Origin: an uncultured Bacteroidota bacterium
GTDB lineage: Bacteria > Bacteroidota > Bacteroidia > B-17B0 > Aurantibacillaceae
NCBI GenBank assembly: GCA_937873155.1
Contig: CALMVZ010000002.1
Location: 1-64,000, forward strand
DNA length: 64,000 nt
Reading direction: 5' to 3'
Part shown: positions 18,111 through 47,793 of the stretch, one piece after another
Layout: each line of letters begins with the position of its first letter
Position numbering within the stretch: position 1 is the first letter of the stretch
Notes under the pieces: model-generated
What the model was told of the DNA's origin: nothing
Seen by the model: the letters and a program-made list of their open reading frames with translations, nothing else
Databases searched by the model: none
Translations under genes and position numbers: made by a program

Positions 18111-18671
18111 ATGTCGTTATTATCACACATATCCAAATTGATACCCATTTCGAAAGAACTGGAAAAAGAGATCATTTCAGTATCAAAGGAAATTTCAGTT
18201 CCCAAGAATACTATTCTTATTAAAAAGGGCGAACGCTGCCGCAATTTATTTTTCATTAAGAAAGGCTTGCTGCGTGGTTTTTATTACGACGGGGGAAAAG
18301 AGATCACGCATTGGTTTGCCAAGGAAGAAGAATTCGGCACCTCCTTCTACTCTTTTATCACCAACGAACCATCACCTGAAACAATAGAAACTTTAGAAGA
18401 CTGCGAATTAATCCGGGTCGCACATGCTGATCTTCAGAACTTGTATTCTAACTTTAAAGAAACAGAACGGATCGGAAGGATCATCACTGAAACTTATTAT
18501 ATCGACCTCGAAGAACGTTTTCTGAATATACAATTCAAATCCGCGAAAGAACGCTATCAAAACCTTATCACAAAGAATCCCTCTTTAATTCAGCGCGCTT
18601 CGTTAGGGCAAATAGCTACCTACCTGGGAATCACACAGGAAACCTTAAGCCGTGTAAGAGCAGAAAAGTAA
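18111..18671 (+). CDS. Crp/Fnr-family transcriptional regulator A
   Basis: 186 aa. An N-terminal cNMP-binding-type jelly roll (KKGERCRNLFFIKKGLLRGF, residues about 36-55) is followed by a dimerisation helix (YYIDLEERFLNIQ). The compact C-terminal HTH ends in the recognition helix GITQETLSRVRAEK, with the short tail typical of the Bacteroidota branch. No FNR-type N-terminal cysteines are present, so an oxygen-sensing cluster is unlikely. It is probably translated from the aminopeptidase transcript. The palindrome TTGACATATGTCAA lies 22 nt after its stop codon and upstream of yiaA; it fits an FNR-type site and is the obvious candidate target. Confidence 0.9.
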   Translation: MSLLSHISKLIPISKELEKEIISVSKEISVPKNTILIKKGERCRNLFFIKKGLLRGFYYDGGKEITHWFAKEEEFGTSFYSFITNEPSPETIETLEDCELIRVAHADLQNLYSNFKETERIGRIITETYYIDLEERFLNIQFKSAKERYQNLITKNPSLIQRASLGQIATYLGITQETLSRVRAEK

Positions 18672-18692: not shown

Positions 18693-18738
18693 TTTTGACA
18701 TATGTCAAAAGCCACTCCTTTACTGCACATTACATTTG
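18693..18738 (+). promoter_or_regulatory. FNR-like operator plus -7 element in front of yiaA
   Basis: The 18-bp perfect palindrome TTTTGACATATGTCAAAA (18693-18710) contains TTGAC-ATAT-GTCAA, the FNR-box pattern. The -7 element TACATTTG is at 18731-18738. The palindrome centre (18701.5) lies 36.5 nt upstream of the last G of the -7 element. That equals a class II activator position (about -41.5) if transcription starts 5 nt after the element. The same spacing recurs at 22764-22807 and 47750-47793. Confidence 0.8.
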
Positions 18739-18745
18739 ATCTATA

Positions 18746-18773
18746 ATTTCCCCGAGGGATGCCTTCGGCAAAA
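18746..18773 (+). repeat. 28-nt two-hairpin element in the yiaA leader
   Basis: ATTTCCC-CGAG-GGATGCC followed by TTCGGCAAAA. It can fold as two small stems (CCC/GGG and TGCC-TTC-GGCA). It is 25/28 identical to minus-strand 24690-24663 in the 3' UTR of a cold-shock gene; the only differences are in the first stem's loop. It occupies most of the predicted yiaA 5' leader and ends 9 nt before the ATG. Confidence 0.75.
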
Positions 18774-18782
18774 ACTTAGATC

Positions 18783-19220
18783 ATGAATCAAAAACCATCA
18801 AATGCTTTTATAGGTGCCTCATGGGTCGCCTTATTAGCGGGCGGAATATCTTATTGCGTCGGATTATGGAATGCGAATATGTTCCTGAATGAAAAAGGCT
18901 ATTACTTTACTATTTTAATGTACGGATTGTTCTCGGCAGTTTCTTTACAGAAAGCTGTGCGGGATCAATTGGAGGGAATACCGGTAACCGGAATTTATCT
19001 CGGCATCTCCTGGTTCTCTACCCTGCTCTCTATTCTCTTATTGATAATCGGATTATGGCATGCAGATCTTGATCTGAGTGAAAAAGGATTTTACGCCATG
19101 TCATTCCTTTTAAGTTTGTTTGCAGTGATCGCGGTTCAGAAAAATATCCGTGACATCAATCTCGCTAACAAAGAAAATCAAAAAAGATCTGAAACGTCTG
19201 AATTAACTGATGACAAATAA
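18783..19220 (+). CDS. yiaA: YiaA/YiaB-type inner membrane protein
   Basis: 145 aa with four transmembrane helices arranged as two copies of the YiaA/B two-helix domain. Each copy has the sequence pattern (GASWVALLAGGISYCVGLWNA / GISWFSTLLSILLLIIGLWHA) followed by LSEKGxY and a QKxxRD motif (residues about 56-62 and 118-124). The biochemical role of this family is unknown. It starts an operon with the ceramidase-like gene, whose ATG overlaps its 3' end by 11 bp. It lies behind an FNR-like operator and next to Crp/Fnr regulator A, which suggests control by that regulator. Confidence 0.88.
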   Translation: MNQKPSNAFIGASWVALLAGGISYCVGLWNANMFLNEKGYYFTILMYGLFSAVSLQKAVRDQLEGIPVTGIYLGISWFSTLLSILLLIIGLWHADLDLSEKGFYAMSFLLSLFAVIAVQKNIRDINLANKENQKRSETSELTDDK

Positions 19221-19947
19221 GATCAGAACATACTTGCTTATTGGTATTAGCGCTGCTGCCTTTGTCTCAATGCTAAGTATTTCCCCGATAAGACAAGATC
19301 CGGCCTTTCACAATTTCGCTGATGGAAGGGAAATTGTTTCCATACCTAATTTCATGAACGTGATCTCAAATCTTCCGTTCCTGTTATTAGGGGCTGCAGG
19401 CCTGTGGACCATAAAAAAGAGCAGACCCAATGGTGCTTTTGAGGAATTAAGAACTAATTGTATACTTTTCTTTGCAGGAATATTCTTCACCGGTATCGGG
19501 TCTGCTTTTTATCATTTAGATCCAAATAATTCTACATTAATATGGGACCGTTTACCAATGACCATTTCTTTTATGGCGATCTTTTCTGTTTTAACAGGAA
19601 CAATGATCAATACTGAATTGGGAAAGAAAATTTTATGGCCATTGACCGGGTTCGGAATTCTTTCTGTCTGGTATTGGCAGATCTATGATGACCTTCGCCT
19701 TTATGCAATTGTGCAATTTTTACCGATCATATTGATGCCTTTGATCCTTATTATTTATGATAAGAACAAATTTCCTAAAAAATATTTCTGGCTGATGATC
19801 TCGTTCTATGGGATCGCTAAACTATTTGAGGCATTAGATGTAGAAGCTTATTATATTCTGAAAGTGATCAGCGGGCACACCATCAAACATTTATTTGCTG
19901 CTTTAACACCAGCTGTATTTTTATATGCGTATAGAAAGAAAACTTAG
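19210..19947 (+). CDS. Ceramidase-like (CREST superfamily) multi-pass membrane hydrolase
   Basis: 245 aa, about seven transmembrane helices. It carries the CREST pattern: Ser and His in GIGSAFYHLDPNN (residues about 96-108), Asp in WDRLPMTISF, and the HxxxH pair in SGHTIKHLF near the C-terminus. These residues form the zinc/catalytic site of alkaline ceramidases and PAQR-like enzymes. Many Bacteroidota make sphingolipids, so amide hydrolysis of such a lipid is plausible but unproven. It is translationally coupled to yiaA (11-bp overlap). Its 3' end overlaps that of the convergent PLD gene by 4 bp. Confidence 0.82.
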   Translation: MTNKIRTYLLIGISAAAFVSMLSISPIRQDPAFHNFADGREIVSIPNFMNVISNLPFLLLGAAGLWTIKKSRPNGAFEELRTNCILFFAGIFFTGIGSAFYHLDPNNSTLIWDRLPMTISFMAIFSVLTGTMINTELGKKILWPLTGFGILSVWYWQIYDDLRLYAIVQFLPIILMPLILIIYDKNKFPKKYFWLMISFYGIAKLFEALDVEAYYILKVISGHTIKHLFAALTPAVFLYAYRKKT

Positions 19948-21467
19948 AGGATCTCCTTGGGAACAACTTTTTTCGTCCAGGCTTTTAATTGTCTTGTTTT
20001 ATCAGCCTTATCATCCGGATTGAATGTTAAAGTTGTCTCCCAGGAATTCTCAGGCTTAAATTCTTCCTCCATTCCTTTTAAAACACCTTCAGTTACTTTT
20101 TGAGAACGGATCACGGTAATGCACTCTGTATTTAGGTTCGCGCTTCTCGGATCTAAATTAAAAGTACCTATAACCGTTATTTTTCCATCGATCACCATAG
20201 ACTTAGCATGCAAACCAAATACCGGGGTAAAATTCATTTTTTGCTGTAATTCACCTGACATAATTTTAAAACGTTCTGCCGCGTCAGGTTTGAATTCATA
20301 GATCTTCACGCCTGCTTCCAATAATTGTTTTCTGCAGCTCTTGTAACCATTGAATGCTTCCAGGTTATCATTCGATGCGAGGCTATTTGTAAGTATTCTC
20401 ACTTTCACTCCCCGCTTCACCGTTTCCCTGAATAAATTTAATCCAAGATCCGTAGTAATTAAATAAGGAGATTGGATCTCAATTGACTCTTTTGCCTGCA
20501 TCACTAAACTTATCAATGAATCTGTAGTGATACCTCCGCGAATACGCCCCCTGTTCTTCCCGGGATCATCACTAATAAAAGTTAAGCTATCGGTCCAAAT
20601 TAATTCTCCTGATTCGCGGATATTTTTAAATGCTTTTGGCAGATTTTGAATGCGTTCACGCACTTGCGGCCAGAAATTTTTCGGATCGCATGCATATTGA
20701 TGTAATAACTCATAACGAGAAGGAGAACTGAAATCATCTTCTTTGTCTTCAACAACATCTGTTACAGGAACGCTGATCGGATCGGTCCAGAATTTCTCAA
20801 AAGAATTTTGAACCGAAGCAACTGTTTTTCCTACGAACAACACATCCCTATCACGGAAATTAAACTCATGATCGTAATCAAAATACTCATCGGCTATATT
20901 TCTTCCTCCTGTAATTACAACTTTACCATCCACCGTAAACGTTTTGTTGTGCATTCGCTGGTTGAAACTTTTCGCATCCTTCGCCAGGCTCTTCAGCTTT
21001 CCGAATAAACTTTTCCCAAGATTACATCCGGGATTATAAATTTTAATTTCGATGTTCTCATGCGAATCCATTGATAAAATTTCGTGAACACCGGCATCTA
21101 CCATGATATCATCCACCAATATTCTGACTTTAATACCGCGATCCGCCGCCCGGATCAAATAATCACAAGCTATCAGTCCAACATTATCAGTAGAAAAAAT
21201 AAAATACTGGATATCTATGGTTTTTTCAGCGTATTCACACAGCCACGCGCGTGTGACAAGGGAATTACCGCCATCTTCCAGAACATAAACTCCCGTACTG
21301 TTCTTCATTTGTTCAGAAAGCGGTTCTAATTCTTTCGACAGGCTAAATGAATCATTTCGATGAATGGAAGAACAAAAATCGGTGGCTGTTTCCGGGATCT
21401 CAGTATGATGTTCCGAACACGAGAAAAACAATAATAAAAATGTGCAGTATAGGATGGTTCTGATCAT
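19944..21467 (-). CDS. Phospholipase D-family lipoprotein (cardiolipin-synthase-like)
   Basis: 507 aa. A lipoprotein signal with the lipobox LLFFSC (Cys17) precedes two PLD domains. Each has an HKD motif: His173-Lys175-Asp180 (HNKTFTVDG) followed by GGRN, and His420-Lys422-Asp427 (HAKSMVIDG) followed by GTFNLDPRS. Two HKD motifs in one chain make one active site, acting on phospholipid or nucleic acid phosphodiesters. The lipoprotein anchor is unlike cytoplasmic-facing cardiolipin synthase and suggests an envelope role, but the substrate is open. It is monocistronic and convergent with the ceramidase-like gene. Confidence 0.9.
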   Translation of the reverse strand: MIRTILYCTFLLLFFSCSEHHTEIPETATDFCSSIHRNDSFSLSKELEPLSEQMKNSTGVYVLEDGGNSLVTRAWLCEYAEKTIDIQYFIFSTDNVGLIACDYLIRAADRGIKVRILVDDIMVDAGVHEILSMDSHENIEIKIYNPGCNLGKSLFGKLKSLAKDAKSFNQRMHNKTFTVDGKVVITGGRNIADEYFDYDHEFNFRDRDVLFVGKTVASVQNSFEKFWTDPISVPVTDVVEDKEDDFSSPSRYELLHQYACDPKNFWPQVRERIQNLPKAFKNIRESGELIWTDSLTFISDDPGKNRGRIRGGITTDSLISLVMQAKESIEIQSPYLITTDLGLNLFRETVKRGVKVRILTNSLASNDNLEAFNGYKSCRKQLLEAGVKIYEFKPDAAERFKIMSGELQQKMNFTPVFGLHAKSMVIDGKITVIGTFNLDPRSANLNTECITVIRSQKVTEGVLKGMEEEFKPENSWETTLTFNPDDKADKTRQLKAWTKKVVPKEIL

Positions 21468-22198: not shown

Positions 22199-22442
22199 TA
22201 TTATTTTTTATTTCTTCAAAAACTATTTCATTATTCTCAACATCCTTCGGTTCTGCCTGGTTGGTATAACATATGCCTCCTCTGCAACAACCAACATTAA
22301 ATACAGCCTGTAATATAAGTACAGAAGCCAATACCCCAAACATAATGTCATAAGCCCTGAGAGCTTCTGTTAAAACGTAAATCCCCAGGCCCAAACGAAG
22401 ACCCCGCATAAAATTCCAATTGCTGAATACTATATTTTTCAT
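22173..22442 (-). CDS. Small DUF2892/YgaP-like two-helix membrane protein
   Basis: 89 aa. [20 protein letters not shown] and [19 protein letters not shown] give two membrane helices of the type found in the C-terminal half of E. coli YgaP. A Cys-rich motif follows (CCRGGICY). It overlaps the rhodanese gene by 4 bp upstream and thioredoxin by 26 bp downstream, so translation is coupled. In YgaP, rhodanese and membrane hairpin are one polypeptide; here they are two adjacent genes. Confidence 0.82.
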
Positions 22443-22744
22443 TTTAAATTATACCACGAACCGGCATTATACACTTTCTCAAATCCGGCTTTAATTAATA
22501 TACTTTTGGCCGATTCACTTCGCATACCGGAAGCACAACATGTTATTATTGTTTTTTCTTTGTTTTTTAATTTTTTAATCGCGGAATTTAATTGGTCTAA
22601 TGGGATATTAATAGAACCTTCAGCATGTCCGCCTTCAAACTCGCCTTTTGTTCTCACATCAATAATCAAAGCCCCGCCGGCAATTAGTTCTTTGTAATCG
22701 ACTTTTGAACCTAAACCTAAAATATTTTTAATTTTATTGATCAT
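22439..22744 (-). CDS. Single-domain rhodanese-like sulfurtransferase
   Basis: 101 aa from the ATG at 22744 (MINKIKNILGLG). Rhodanese fold with LIIDVRTKGEFEGGHAEGSI and the active-site loop CCASGMRS, in which the second Cys is the likely persulfide-carrying residue (CxxxxR spacing). It transfers sulfane sulfur in the cytoplasm or at the membrane. It is first in the operon, with its own -7 element at 22764-22771 and a Crp/Fnr-type palindrome at 22794-22807; the Crp/Fnr regulator B gene lies directly upstream. Confidence 0.93.
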   Translation of the reverse strand: MINKIKNILGLGSKVDYKELIAGGALIIDVRTKGEFEGGHAEGSINIPLDQLNSAIKKLKNKEKTIITCCASGMRSESAKSILIKAGFEKVYNAGSWYNLK

Positions 22745-22763: not shown

Positions 22764-22807
22764 CAAAGGTAAAGAGGAAAAGGATTCTGGTCCGGAACAA
22801 ATGTTAC
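22764..22807 (-). promoter_or_regulatory. Rhodanese operon promoter with Crp/Fnr-type site
   Basis: -7 element TACCTTTG (22771 to 22764, minus strand) and the imperfect palindrome GTAACATTTGTTCC (minus strand, 22807 to 22794). Its centre (22800.5) lies 36.5 nt upstream of the last base of the -7 element. Twelve of 14 bases match the palindrome in front of the multicopper oxidase gene (47780-47793). Crp/Fnr regulator B, encoded just upstream, is the natural candidate. Confidence 0.78.
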
Positions 22808-22808
22808 T

Positions 22809-23420
22809 TTAAGTTGTAAGTAACACAATATTATTACGTCCTAATTTTACAAGTTTCTTCTGTTCCATAGTCCGCAAAAGTCTGCTAATTGCCTCACGAT
22901 GTGTATGTAATTCGTCGGCAATTTGCTGATGCGTTAATTCGAGGGATCTTGTGTTCAATGCTTTTGACCTTTCTGTTAAATAATGTAAAAGCTGAGTATC
23001 CATATTTGTAAACGCGATAAGATCAATAACCTCCATTAACTCCGTAAAACGATTTTGATAGTTAGTACTGATATACATCTTCCATTCAGGGAATCTGAAC
23101 CACTCATCCATTAACTTAACCGGAACTTGTATTATCTCTGTATCCACTTCCGCAACTGCCTTTATCATACTTTTTTTACCTGCCTGGCAACAAGTTAAAG
23201 ACATAGCACAGGTTTGCCCCGGATACAAATGATATAAAAACACTTCCTGTCCATCATTATTTTGACGGATAATACGGATGTTTCCATTAATTACTATTGG
23301 AATGAACAAGATCTCATCTCCGGGTTTAGTAATTACTGTATCCTTCGGAAACGTACGTCGTTTTGAATTTTTTTCTAATTCAGATAATAATTCCTTATCA
23401 GTAAACAGTGAGGATAACAT
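22809..23420 (-). CDS. Crp/Fnr-family transcriptional regulator B
   Basis: 203 aa. The N-terminal jelly roll is KPGDEILFIPIVINGNIRII. A central CAMSLTCCQAGKKSMIKA stretch follows; a double Cys at this place is common in Bacteroidota members and could sense redox state. The C-terminal winged HTH is LTHQQIADELHTHREAISRLL. Its gene has an exact -7 element at 23442-23449. It lies 64 bp upstream of the rhodanese operon, whose promoter has a Crp/Fnr-like palindrome. It is therefore probably the activator of a sulfur/redox or copper-related regulon; the signal is unknown. Confidence 0.9.
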   Translation of the reverse strand: MLSSLFTDKELLSELEKNSKRRTFPKDTVITKPGDEILFIPIVINGNIRIIRQNNDGQEVFLYHLYPGQTCAMSLTCCQAGKKSMIKAVAEVDTEIIQVPVKLMDEWFRFPEWKMYISTNYQNRFTELMEVIDLIAFTNMDTQLLHYLTERSKALNTRSLELTHQQIADELHTHREAISRLLRTMEQKKLVKLGRNNIVLLTT

Positions 23421-24662: not shown

Positions 24663-24690
24663 TTTTGCCGAAGGCATCCCAACGGGAAAT
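24663..24690 (-). repeat. 28-nt two-hairpin element in a csp 3' UTR
   Basis: On the minus strand ATTTCCC-GTTG-GGATGCC followed by TTCGGCAAAA, starting 1 nt after the csp stop codon. It is 25/28 identical to the element in the yiaA leader (18746-18773); the three differences lie in the first hairpin loop. Confidence 0.75.
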
Positions 24691-24691
24691 A

Positions 24692-24880
24692 TTAAGCAAG
24701 ACTTACGTTCACTGCGTTAAGGCCTTTTTTACCGTCCTGAACTTCGAATACAACGTTGTCATTTTCGCGGATCTCTTCTTTTAAACCTGTTACGTGAACA
24801 AATACTTCTTGTCCATCTTCTCCTTTAATAAAACCAAAACCTTTGGCTTCGTTAAAAAATTTTACTGTTCCTTTTTTCAT
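24692..24880 (-). CDS. Cold-shock protein (CspA family), copy 2 of a tandem pair
   Basis: 62 aa single cold-shock domain with RNP1 KGFGFIKGED and RNP2 VFVHVTGL. It binds single-stranded RNA/DNA and melts RNA structure. It is nearly identical in protein sequence to the copy 19 bp upstream (differences at a few positions such as MKK/MQK, KGED/KAED, VFVH/LFVH), so it is a tandem duplicate. Both are downstream of an RhlE-type helicase on the same strand. Confidence 0.95.
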   Translation of the reverse strand: MKKGTVKFFNEAKGFGFIKGEDGQEVFVHVTGLKEEIRENDNVVFEVQDGKKGLNAVNVSLA

Positions 24881-24899
24881 TGGTTTACTTTTTTAAATA

Positions 24900-25088
24900 T
24901 TAAGCTAAACTAACGTTAACTGCATTAAGACCTTTTTTGCCTTCCTGCACTTCGAATACAACGTTGTCGTTCTCGCGAATCTCTTCTTTTAAACCTGTTA
25001 CATGAACAAATAATTCTTGTCCATCTTCTGCTTTAATAAATCCGAAACCTTTCGCTTCATTAAAAAATTTTACTGTTCCTTTTTGCAT
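24900..25088 (-). CDS. Cold-shock protein (CspA family), copy 1 of a tandem pair
   Basis: 62 aa; RNP1 is KGFGFIKAED and RNP2 is LFVHVTGL. Its 68-nt upstream spacer contains a short GTCCG/CGGAC inverted repeat (25104-25108 with 25123-25127) that could structure the leader, as in other csp mRNAs; no clear -7 element is seen there, so transcription may come from the helicase promoter. A third homologue lies at 35137. Confidence 0.95.
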   Translation of the reverse strand: MQKGTVKFFNEAKGFGFIKAEDGQELFVHVTGLKEEIRENDNVVFEVQEGKKGLNAVNVSLA

Positions 25089-25156
25089 TGTTTTTTGTTT
25101 TTTGTCCGCTTTTTTAATTTAACGGACGGTTATTATTACTTATTTACTTGTATTGA

Positions 25157-46007: not shown

Positions 46008-47726
46008 TTATTTTATCAAACTTACTTTTCTGTAAACAAAACCTTCTCCCGATTTTATTTTTAAGAAATATATTTCGGAAGAATTTGTTCCTAAATCTAA
46101 TTCGATTTCATTAGAATTTATTTTATTCTCCGAGAAAATTAATTTACCTGCATAATCTAAAACCTCTACACCCCATAGGGCTTCATTACTATTACGTTTA
46201 ATACTAATTTTATTGGAAGTAGGGTTGGGAAATATTGTTATATCATCTTGTATAGAACTTAACTCATTCACACCAATACCGAGAGGGCATTTCACAACAA
46301 AGTGTCCCATCATCCCATCATCTTCATGCGGTAACATATGGCAGTGATACATATACATTCCCGTTGTATCACAAAATGTTTCGAATTTAGTAATGAATTT
46401 TACAGTTTGTCCGGCAGGAACTAACACCACGTCTTTCCGTCCCAACATATTTGCAGGAGGAAGCAATCCATTAATCTCTGTTATATAAAATTGCACATCA
46501 TGAATATGAAAAGGATGTGCTATTGGTGATTGATTATCCAATGTCCAAACTTCAATATTATTATACGGAATAGTATAATTAATAACGTCCATATCAAAAC
46601 TTACATTATTAATTAAAAAGGGCCCTTGAATAGCTGTTGGCCCCATATTAACCGGAGAAAACGTTAATGTTTTAAATGCATTAGCGTTTCCAACTACCCA
46701 AGGATTGTTTACTATAAGTGTTGAAGGTATTGTGGTAACGGGTGAAACAGTTTGTGCCACAACACTAAAGGTCATTATACTAAAATTGGCGCCGTTTAAA
46801 ATATTTGATGCGTAGCCGGGAATAACTTGTCCCGGTCCCATACCCGGTTGCAAAGCTCCATAAATTGCATTAGGCAATTCAGAAGCATAACTCATTAAGT
46901 TAATCGACTGCCCTACTTTACCCGAAAGATCAATCAATATATCAGCGCGCTCGCCGGGAGAAAGTCTTAATCGTGTTAATGCAACCGGGGCATTCAATAA
47001 ACCACCATCAGTTCCTATTTGATGAAAGATTAAGTTACCTTGAAAACCTATATTATAAACTCTCTCAGAAGAAGCATTTAGTAATCTCAAACGCACCACC
47101 TGCGCAGGTGCGGGTAAATAACCTTTAACAGTTCCGTTTACCATCATAACACTATCATAAGCGTTATCAATTATAATTTGCTTTGTAGCGTCGAAACATT
47201 TTGATTGAATTACTAATGGAAAATCATCAATACCATAACGACGAGGTAAATTCAGTTTTCTTTCTGTTGTATCACGAACAATAATTACACCCGCTGCCCC
47301 TAAAGTTGCATGCAGATTCGTCATCATGTGTAAATGCGGATGATACCAATACATCGCAGCATGATCACGTACTTTAAATTTTGGGTTCCAAATTGCGCTT
47401 GGAGGAATTACAATATGTGGCCCACCATCATTTTTAGCAGAAACATGTAAACCATGCCAATGAATAGTAGTCGTATCCATTAACTGATTATTTACGTTCA
47501 TGCTAACTGAATCACCTTGATTCAAAAACAAAGTCGGACCAAGATATTTAGCATTAATCCCAAAGGTATTAGTTACATAACCTGTATAAAATACGTTTGT
47601 AGTATCATAAATATTTAAATTAAAGCTTGTACCGGAAATGGTATCAGGAATTACAATAAGATTTTGTGATCTATATCCCTGATTAATAAAAAGTAAGAAA
47701 CTAAAAACTAGTAATTTTTTTTTCAT
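46008..47726 (-). CDS. Multicopper oxidase with T9SS type A sorting domain
   Basis: 572 aa from the ATG at 47726 (signal peptide MKKKLLVFSFLLFINQGYRS). Three cupredoxin domains with the four copper-ligand clusters: HWHG (89-92), YWYHPHLH (127-133), HPFHIHDVQF and HCHMLPHEDDGMM; the last holds the type 1 Cys and the Met. Met-rich segments and overall layout are CueO/bilirubin-oxidase-like, so copper(I) or phenolic oxidation is plausible. The T9SS tail begins IFPNPTSNKISI. A near -7 element (TAACTTTC) and a Crp/Fnr-type palindrome lie upstream, matching the rhodanese operon. Confidence 0.95.
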   Translation of the reverse strand: MKKKLLVFSFLLFINQGYRSQNLIVIPDTISGTSFNLNIYDTTNVFYTGYVTNTFGINAKYLGPTLFLNQGDSVSMNVNNQLMDTTTIHWHGLHVSAKNDGGPHIVIPPSAIWNPKFKVRDHAAMYWYHPHLHMMTNLHATLGAAGVIIVRDTTERKLNLPRRYGIDDFPLVIQSKCFDATKQIIIDNAYDSVMMVNGTVKGYLPAPAQVVRLRLLNASSERVYNIGFQGNLIFHQIGTDGGLLNAPVALTRLRLSPGERADILIDLSGKVGQSINLMSYASELPNAIYGALQPGMGPGQVIPGYASNILNGANFSIMTFSVVAQTVSPVTTIPSTLIVNNPWVVGNANAFKTLTFSPVNMGPTAIQGPFLINNVSFDMDVINYTIPYNNIEVWTLDNQSPIAHPFHIHDVQFYITEINGLLPPANMLGRKDVVLVPAGQTVKFITKFETFCDTTGMYMYHCHMLPHEDDGMMGHFVVKCPLGIGVNELSSIQDDITIFPNPTSNKISIKRNSNEALWGVEVLDYAGKLIFSENKINSNEIELDLGTNSSEIYFLKIKSGEGFVYRKVSLIK

Positions 47727-47749
47727 GATAAAAACTAATTTAGATGACA

Positions 47750-47793
47750 GAAAGTTACAATGTTCCCCGATCTTCTTAAGTAACATTTGTTAC
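47750..47793 (-). promoter_or_regulatory. Multicopper oxidase promoter with Crp/Fnr-type site
   Basis: -7-like TAACTTTC (47757 to 47750, one mismatch) and the perfect palindrome GTAACA-TT-TGTTAC (47780-47793). The palindrome centre at 47786.5 lies 36.5 nt upstream of the last base of the -7 element, exactly as at 22764-22807 and 18693-18738. It matches the rhodanese-operon site at 12 of 14 bases. Confidence 0.75.

Follow-up and report, generated by a model that had tools for sequence, protein, structure and literature searches.

HcpR1 of delta-proteobacteria and cyanobacteria is described as using the box wyTTGACnnnnGTCAArw (TTGACnnnnGTCAA) to control hcp, frdX and redox genes, frequently from a regulator gene beside the target, and the passages devoted to this branch state that residue 180 is not Arg and mention no change at Glu181 (PMC1274295). 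In the same source, NssR of Campylobacter jejuni combines A180 and Q181 with the site TTAACnnnnGTTAA and a globin gene as target (PMC1274295). The unit that we describe here shares with HcpR1 both the box and the placement of the regulator beside its target, but the target is yiaA and the regulator, which we call regulator A, is a Bacteroidota protein that lacks the wing. In the openly licensed PMC literature we found no paper on the DNA sites of these Bacteroidota regulators, and none on the role of YiaA.

Oxygen sensing by FNR needs four cysteines, for a 4Fe-4S cluster, and the contact residues of FNR are E-S-R, as in regulator A. The two proteins share a fold, with query-normalised TM-scores of 0.83-0.84 for five holo-FNR entries (E. 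coli and Aliivibrio fischeri), and the half-site TTGAY, whereas regulator A has two cysteines only and no wing in its model. The closest solved relative by sequence is 3DN7, a cyclic nucleotide-binding regulatory protein of Cytophaga hutchinsonii (E 2e-36 over nearly the full length), which is also the top fold match and whose sequence stops a few residues past the recognition helix. That helix, FTPEYLSEIR, is unlike the one in regulator A and resembles that of a paralogue, L203, which has TTAAA-N4-TTTAA as its downstream palindrome.

Regulator A and the predicted yiaA promoter

Regulator A is encoded at 18111-18671 on the forward strand of the window, by which we mean the whole 64-kb stretch of DNA analysed. 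The 186-residue protein contains a cNMP-binding domain (PF00027, E 6e-13, 49 bits against a cut-off of 27.5), Pfam helix-turn-helix models gave no match in it, and a fold search returned CAP and FNR chains. In the AlphaFold2 model (pLDDT 93.5), C-terminal helices at residues 158-162, 165-171 and 176-184 make up a predicted helix-turn-helix, and no strand follows the last of them, so that the wing is missing. The recognition helix reads ITQETLSRVR, in which Q176, E177, S180 and R181 correspond to CRP positions 180, 181, 184 and 185 (CRP numbering is used for helix positions below). Because regulator A scores far below the cut-off of the NCBIfam CRP equivalog model (23.1 bits against 266) and has just two cysteines, C43 and C98, it is neither CRP nor an Fe-S FNR; an identity as an oxygen-sensing FNR was rejected on the cysteine count. 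Among 43 yiaA-linked regulators described below, C98 is Cys in 18, C43 is kept in 42 (52 of 114 other homologues), and E90 is Glu in all 43 (23 of 114 others).

The stop codon of regulator A ends at 18671, and after 21 intervening bases comes the predicted operator TTTTGACATATGTCAAAA (18693-18710, no strand assigned), a perfect 18-bp palindrome centred at 18701.5 that has the TTGAY-N4-RTCAA form of an FNR-type box. The -7 element TACATTTG stands at 18731-18738 on the forward strand, and direct reading confirmed the distance of 36.5 nt between the operator centre and its last G that the initial annotation had given. The perfect core TTGACN4GTCAA occurs once in the window, where near-matches with up to two mismatches show no excess (22 found, 36 expected from shuffles), and once in the whole 4.85-Mb genome, before yiaA, while a reversed control pattern has nine genomic copies. 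When all 80 TAnnTTTG elements of the window (34 on the forward strand, 46 on the reverse) were scanned for palindromes at 36.5 nt, TTTTGACATATGTCAAAA alone had all six arm pairs matched; the runners-up had four.

Downstream of the -7 element, the yiaA leader contains a copy of a short dispersed repeat (18756-18773, forward strand). Alignment shows that two close relatives lack this copy at the same place, and the yiaA leader carrying it is about 21 nt longer here than theirs. The genome holds seven copies at up to one mismatch to the GGGATGCCTTCGGCAAAA core, another of them at 24663-24680 on the reverse strand. At 24700-25090, also on the reverse strand, stand two very similar short genes in tandem, which we take to encode cold-shock proteins.

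The presumed target, yiaA (18783-19220, forward strand), encodes an inner-membrane protein with two YiaAB domains (PF05360, E 2e-41) that scores 205.4 bits against NCBIfam NF008482, for which the cut-off is 150. Overlapping its end is a gene for a ceramidase/CREST-like membrane protein (19210-19947, forward strand; PF05875, 40.3 bits against a cut-off of 32.5), which is probably part of the yiaA transcript in this genome. Regulator A, YiaA and the CREST hydrolase had been proposed to form a membrane-lipid stress module. This idea is weak: of the 43 regulator-linked loci, just 6 have the ceramidase-like gene as the next gene in the same direction (L001, L003, L008, L040, L041 and L043, the last on a contig that ends inside the gene); in L011 it lies on the opposite strand. 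It is an occasional passenger and no constant partner of yiaA. The PLD-family gene at 19944-21467 is convergent and thus lies outside the yiaA promoter, since convergent genes cannot share a promoter. PLD-like proteins, judged by the look of their sequences, are likewise encoded convergently downstream in L004, L046, L054, L077 and L101, and before the regulator in L067.

Conservation of the site at yiaA loci

We compared 110 yiaA loci, namely L001-L117 without L002, a repeat of L001 (116 loci), minus six duplicates. Close relatives are over-represented in the set: one source contributed the best 80 of 557, and two others, covering 41 and 395 genomes, yielded yiaA in 8 and 34 of them; five yiaA matches without a locus were left out, and L009 and L010, pieces of one genome's yiaA, were counted apart. 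A regulator was called adjacent when it lay on the same strand and at most 500 nt upstream of yiaA.

Among these 110 loci, including the best 80 of 557, TTGAY-N4-RTCAA precedes yiaA at 43 of 43 with an adjacent [PQ]ETLSR regulator; both half-sites are TTGAC in 32, both TTGAT in 3 and mixed in 8. The -7 element lies at offset 36 from the TTGAY start in 41 loci and at offset 37 in 2, that is, 36.5 or 37.5 nt from operator centre to last G, and it conforms to TAnnTTTG in 42, with the one-mismatch form TACCTTGG in L108, the Chitinophaga pinensis locus (offset 36). The palindrome thus recurs at the same offset upstream of yiaA orthologues, as the initial annotation had anticipated. Its description of the site as an FNR-type operator fits the DNA, with box, neighbouring Crp/Fnr gene and yiaA together in 43 of 43 loci, and does not extend to an Fe-S sensor, given two cysteines. 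A -33 element is not conserved: a TTG some 17-25 nt before the -7 element is present in only 2 of 43 loci. The combination of a fixed operator distance with the lack of a -33 TTG in 41 of 43 loci agrees with the class II activator geometry first suggested for this promoter.

At four flavobacterial loci the adjacent regulator is distant (28-36% identity) and has a PQALSR helix, with Q181. Here TTGAY-N4-RTCAA is found in none of the four and TTAAC-N4-GTTCA in all of them, accompanied by a -7-like TTTNTTTG at offset 37 in three and by no recognisable element in the fourth. The site therefore changes with the helix, Q181 going with TTAAC at 4 of 4 loci; NssR has the same pairing, with a globin gene as its target. 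The proposed link between regulator A and yiaA is upheld by this comparison, with the site in 43 of 43 loci next to a [PQ]ETLSR regulator and in 0 of 4 next to PQALSR.

Where no regulator is adjacent, 58 of 63 yiaA loci also have no site, which implies that yiaA is often under other control. The five sites in this group are all of the TTGAT-N4-ATCAA type, L005 (TTGATTCACATCAA) being one. G006, G007, G008 and G019 keep TTGAT-N4-ATCAA before a yiaA with no adjacent regulator, and their best regulator homologue, with a QETLSR helix and 45-59% identity, is encoded elsewhere in the genome; the flanks of this unlinked gene, examined to about 330 nt on both sides, contain no such site. The yiaA -7 element of G019 is imperfect (CAATTTTG), and yiaA of G008 is split into two pieces on two contigs. 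A different motif, ATATCGTCAGT, occurs upstream of yiaA in the regulator-less L066, L072, L084, L100 and L113, with variants in L076, L089 and L106, which suggests another regulator for yiaA at those loci.

The contrast between 43 of 43 and 5 of 67 loci gives a Fisher p of 2e-25, a value that shared ancestry makes too small, and kinship inflates the counts in general, many loci being Pontibacter or Chitinophagaceae relatives. In the 25 offset-36 loci with diverged spacers, however, information content is 1.77 bits per position in the arms, 0.14 in the spacer and 1.87 in the -7 core. Since the spacer has diverged, the preservation of the arms and of their distance to the -7 element points to selection and not to recent common descent.

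Based on these sequence comparisons, we consider it highly probable that regulator A is a wingless Crp/Fnr activator that binds TTGAY-N4-RTCAA at a class II position and switches on yiaA. A regulator A dimer would bind the palindrome directly downstream of its own gene. Transcription of yiaA would start about 5 nt past TACATTTG, which would place the operator centre about 41.5 bp upstream, near -41.5, where the bound protein would replace the missing -33 element and recruit the Bacteroidota RNA polymerase in class II manner. The overlapping ceramidase-like gene would, in this genome, be switched on together with yiaA, and the cNMP-like domain would sense a small-molecule or redox signal.

The site spans about -50 to -33, a position that would also suit repression of yiaA by regulator A, with the -33 region covered until a ligand releases the protein. 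We regard this as unlikely, as a TTG is missing from that region in 41 of 43 loci and base-exact spacing is needed for activation but not for repression. It is very unlikely that another Crp/Fnr paralogue binds the palindrome and the adjacent gene is incidental. A candidate would be the regulator of a cluster of TTGATATWTATCAA sites on contig C26: TTGAY-N4-RTCAA is widespread in the superfamily, this second regulator has a set of TTGAT-N4-ATCAA sites at C26:133-147 kb, and the five regulator-less yiaA loci with a TTGAT site are open to another paralogue. The co-occurrence with an adjacent regulator gene (43 of 43 against 5 of 67) and the change of the site along with the helix of that gene speak for regulator A instead, as does the perfect TTGAC form, which is unique in the genome whereas the C26 sites are mostly TTGAT.

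The location just past a stop codon and a T-rich left flank could also point to a chance palindrome or a terminator-like feature behind the regulator gene, a reading to which we give almost no credence. Only 33 of 8600 shuffled upstream regions contain the site at up to one mismatch; the arms are conserved and the 22-nt spacer is not, while the -7 element keeps a constant distance from them; and AT-rich arms with no T run behind them appear unlike an intrinsic terminator.

Geometry and half-sites among regulator homologues

The regulator A-yiaA unit looks like one of a class of cassettes in Bacteroidia that would consist of a regulator gene, its own operator and a target gene. We examined regulator A homologues with any target, taken from relatives as well as from 45 genomes spread across the Bacteroidia; the 116 loci yielded 114 usable ones (L230 and L269 had no usable alignment), and the yiaA-linked L151-L155 and G048:C26 were left out. 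One relative, G008, has 21 homologues at E <= 1e-10. Downstream of each regulator stop, on the same strand, we recorded the distance from TAnnTTTG to palindromes with at least four of five arm pairs around a 4-nt core. The 54 elements found there have 17 such palindromes at 36.5 nt and 5 at 37.5, and 38 in total at the 29 other distances between 20.5 and 50.5; for palindromes with all five pairs the counts are 14, 2 and 2. Poisson values of 8e-14 and 6e-28 treat the regulators as independent, although some, such as L163 and L188, are close orthologues. Among control elements, neither the 42 that lie upstream of the regulator on the regulator strand nor the 15 downstream on the other strand have a palindrome at 36.5 or 37.5 nt, divergent elements (22) have none at 36.5 and two at 37.5, and odd-centred palindromes gave no comparable distance peak. 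The expectation that other Crp/Fnr regulators of Bacteroidia share the 36.5-nt geometry is thus supported by 17 palindromes at exactly that distance.

Such a palindrome accompanies 22 of the 45 regulators with a downstream TAnnTTTG. In the ten of these 22 cassettes that were scanned, the targets are DUF998, an MFS transporter, a methyltransferase, Polyketide_cyc2 (two), pirin, CMD, NmrA, a glyoxalase and DUF4345. Taking the palindrome-distance and TTGAY measures together, a hand tally finds a local operator for 39 of 114 regulators (5 by both). The pattern TTGACN4GTCAA-N22-TAnnTTTG occurs in 16 of 395 Bacteroidia genomes, once in each, and its reversed control once. Two of the 16 matches belong to yiaA; by eye, a Crp/Fnr gene lies beside the site or target in 7 of the other 14, and for 7 of the 14 none is seen in the displayed stretch.

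The half-site follows the recognition helix in part. A search of the 150 nt behind each regulator gene, made without reference to the -7 element, found TTGAY-N4-RTCAA for 21 of the 59 regulators that have Glu at CRP position 181 and for 1 of the 53 that do not (L214 and L220, unaligned at the helix, are outside this tally), compared with 0.2% of shuffled sequences. For 23 downstream TTGAY sites, the best -7 element at up to one mismatch is at offset 36 in 17 and 37 in 3, with 3 having poor candidates only. The remaining 38 of 59 E181 paralogues have no downstream TTGAY site; L203, whose PEYLSE helix carries E181, is an exception with its TTAAA box. Since local operators accompany only part of the regulators, the cassette is common and not universal.

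Among V181 regulators, L163, L168, L181 and L188 have TTATC-N4-GATAA; L164, L165 and L166 share its left half but match the right half imperfectly; L215 and L219 have other boxes, and none was found for L160. Two of four PQSLSR regulators (L180, L192) have TTAAC-N4-GTGAA and two (L179, L185) nothing clear. TTGCC-N4-GGCAA goes with the KYSLSR regulator L184 and, among four DTSLSR regulators, only with L244; PESLSR regulators mostly have no box, with a lopsided TTACC-N4-GTCAA in L167 and L183, which are thus further exceptions among E181. Eight regulators have R180: an exact GTGA-N6-TCAC lies downstream of L194, one-mismatch forms downstream of L226 and L261, and nothing downstream of five, while the exact form is absent from all 104 non-R180 regulators. 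The prediction of GTGA from R180 is accordingly weak. Tallies of 7/8, 0/14 and 0/8 were made by eye from the palindrome matches with TGA required in both half-sites; L240, a non-E regulator, has TGA in one. On these counts helix and half-site tend to go together, firmly so at E181, and the direction of this code agrees with the relevant passages of Rodionov et al. 2005 (PMC1274295).

Together, these results make it likely that many short, wingless Crp/Fnr regulators of Bacteroidia are arranged in self-contained cassettes, each comprising a regulator, a class II operator set 36.5 or 37.5 nt before an element resembling TAnnTTTG, and an activated gene. The operator would mostly lie no more than a few tens of bases past the regulator stop, and its half-sites would be largely readable from positions 180 and 181, with TTGAY for E181, TTAAC for Q181, often TTATC for V181 and perhaps GTGA for R180. 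Duplicated cassettes would have diverged into separate channels.

Further sites in the genome and implications

The initial annotation had pointed to two other promoters in the window with 36.5-nt spacing, and both are real, each with a flaw. One has the imperfect palindrome GTAACATTTGTTCC (22794-22807, reverse strand; GTAAC-N4-GTTCC) between the genes for regulator B, a Crp-like protein with an HTH_Crp_2 domain (22809-23420, reverse strand), and a rhodanese (22439-22744, reverse strand), at the exact spacing from the -7 element TACCTTTG (22764-22771, reverse strand). Regulator B and the rhodanese gene may form a second cassette built in this way. With R-E at positions 180/181, regulator B would have a TGTGA-like half-site by the published code, which GTAAC-N4-GTTCC fits only in part. 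The other promoter has a perfect palindrome, GTAACAAATGTTAC (47780-47793, reverse strand), at the same spacing from a -7-like TAACTTTC (47750-47757, reverse strand) whose last base is wrong. It precedes the gene annotated at 46008-47786, the real start of which is probably the ATG at 47726, and it may belong to regulator B.

Elsewhere in the genome, a separate Crp/Fnr-like regulator (L148, C26:133000-147000) comes with the cluster of TTGATATWTATCAA sites mentioned above. By the look of their translations, genes near these sites encode a channel protein of CLC type, a radical enzyme resembling KamA and a PanD-like protein. L130 and L131 combine a similar regulator and a KamA-like gene with TTGAC sites. 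At L150 (C36, 2328-2372), TTGACCTATATCAA is followed at offset 37 by the -7 element TATATTTG, and the gene behind it presumably encodes an acyl-CoA synthetase-like protein, a name taken from its translation. Its best homologues in ten relatives keep the site in three cases (with a -7 element at offset 37 in two and none in one) and lack it in seven, and five weaker second homologues have no site; L285, with no upstream DNA, stood outside the comparison. This gene is no more than a possible second target with a lipid link.

The link between regulator A and yiaA gives a clue as to when the cell makes YiaA, and the base-exact spacing provides a test of how an activator engages the unusual Bacteroidota promoter. 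A lineage-wide cassette with a specificity code is of more interest than the regulator A-yiaA regulon alone. With a rule that derives operator, target and spacing from the sequence, each Bacteroidota regulator of this kind becomes testable. If the cassette reading is true, the same build recurs for many Bacteroidota regulators of the family, so that the targets of many uncharacterised members could be predicted, and the set as a whole would amount to a natural experiment on the specificity code.
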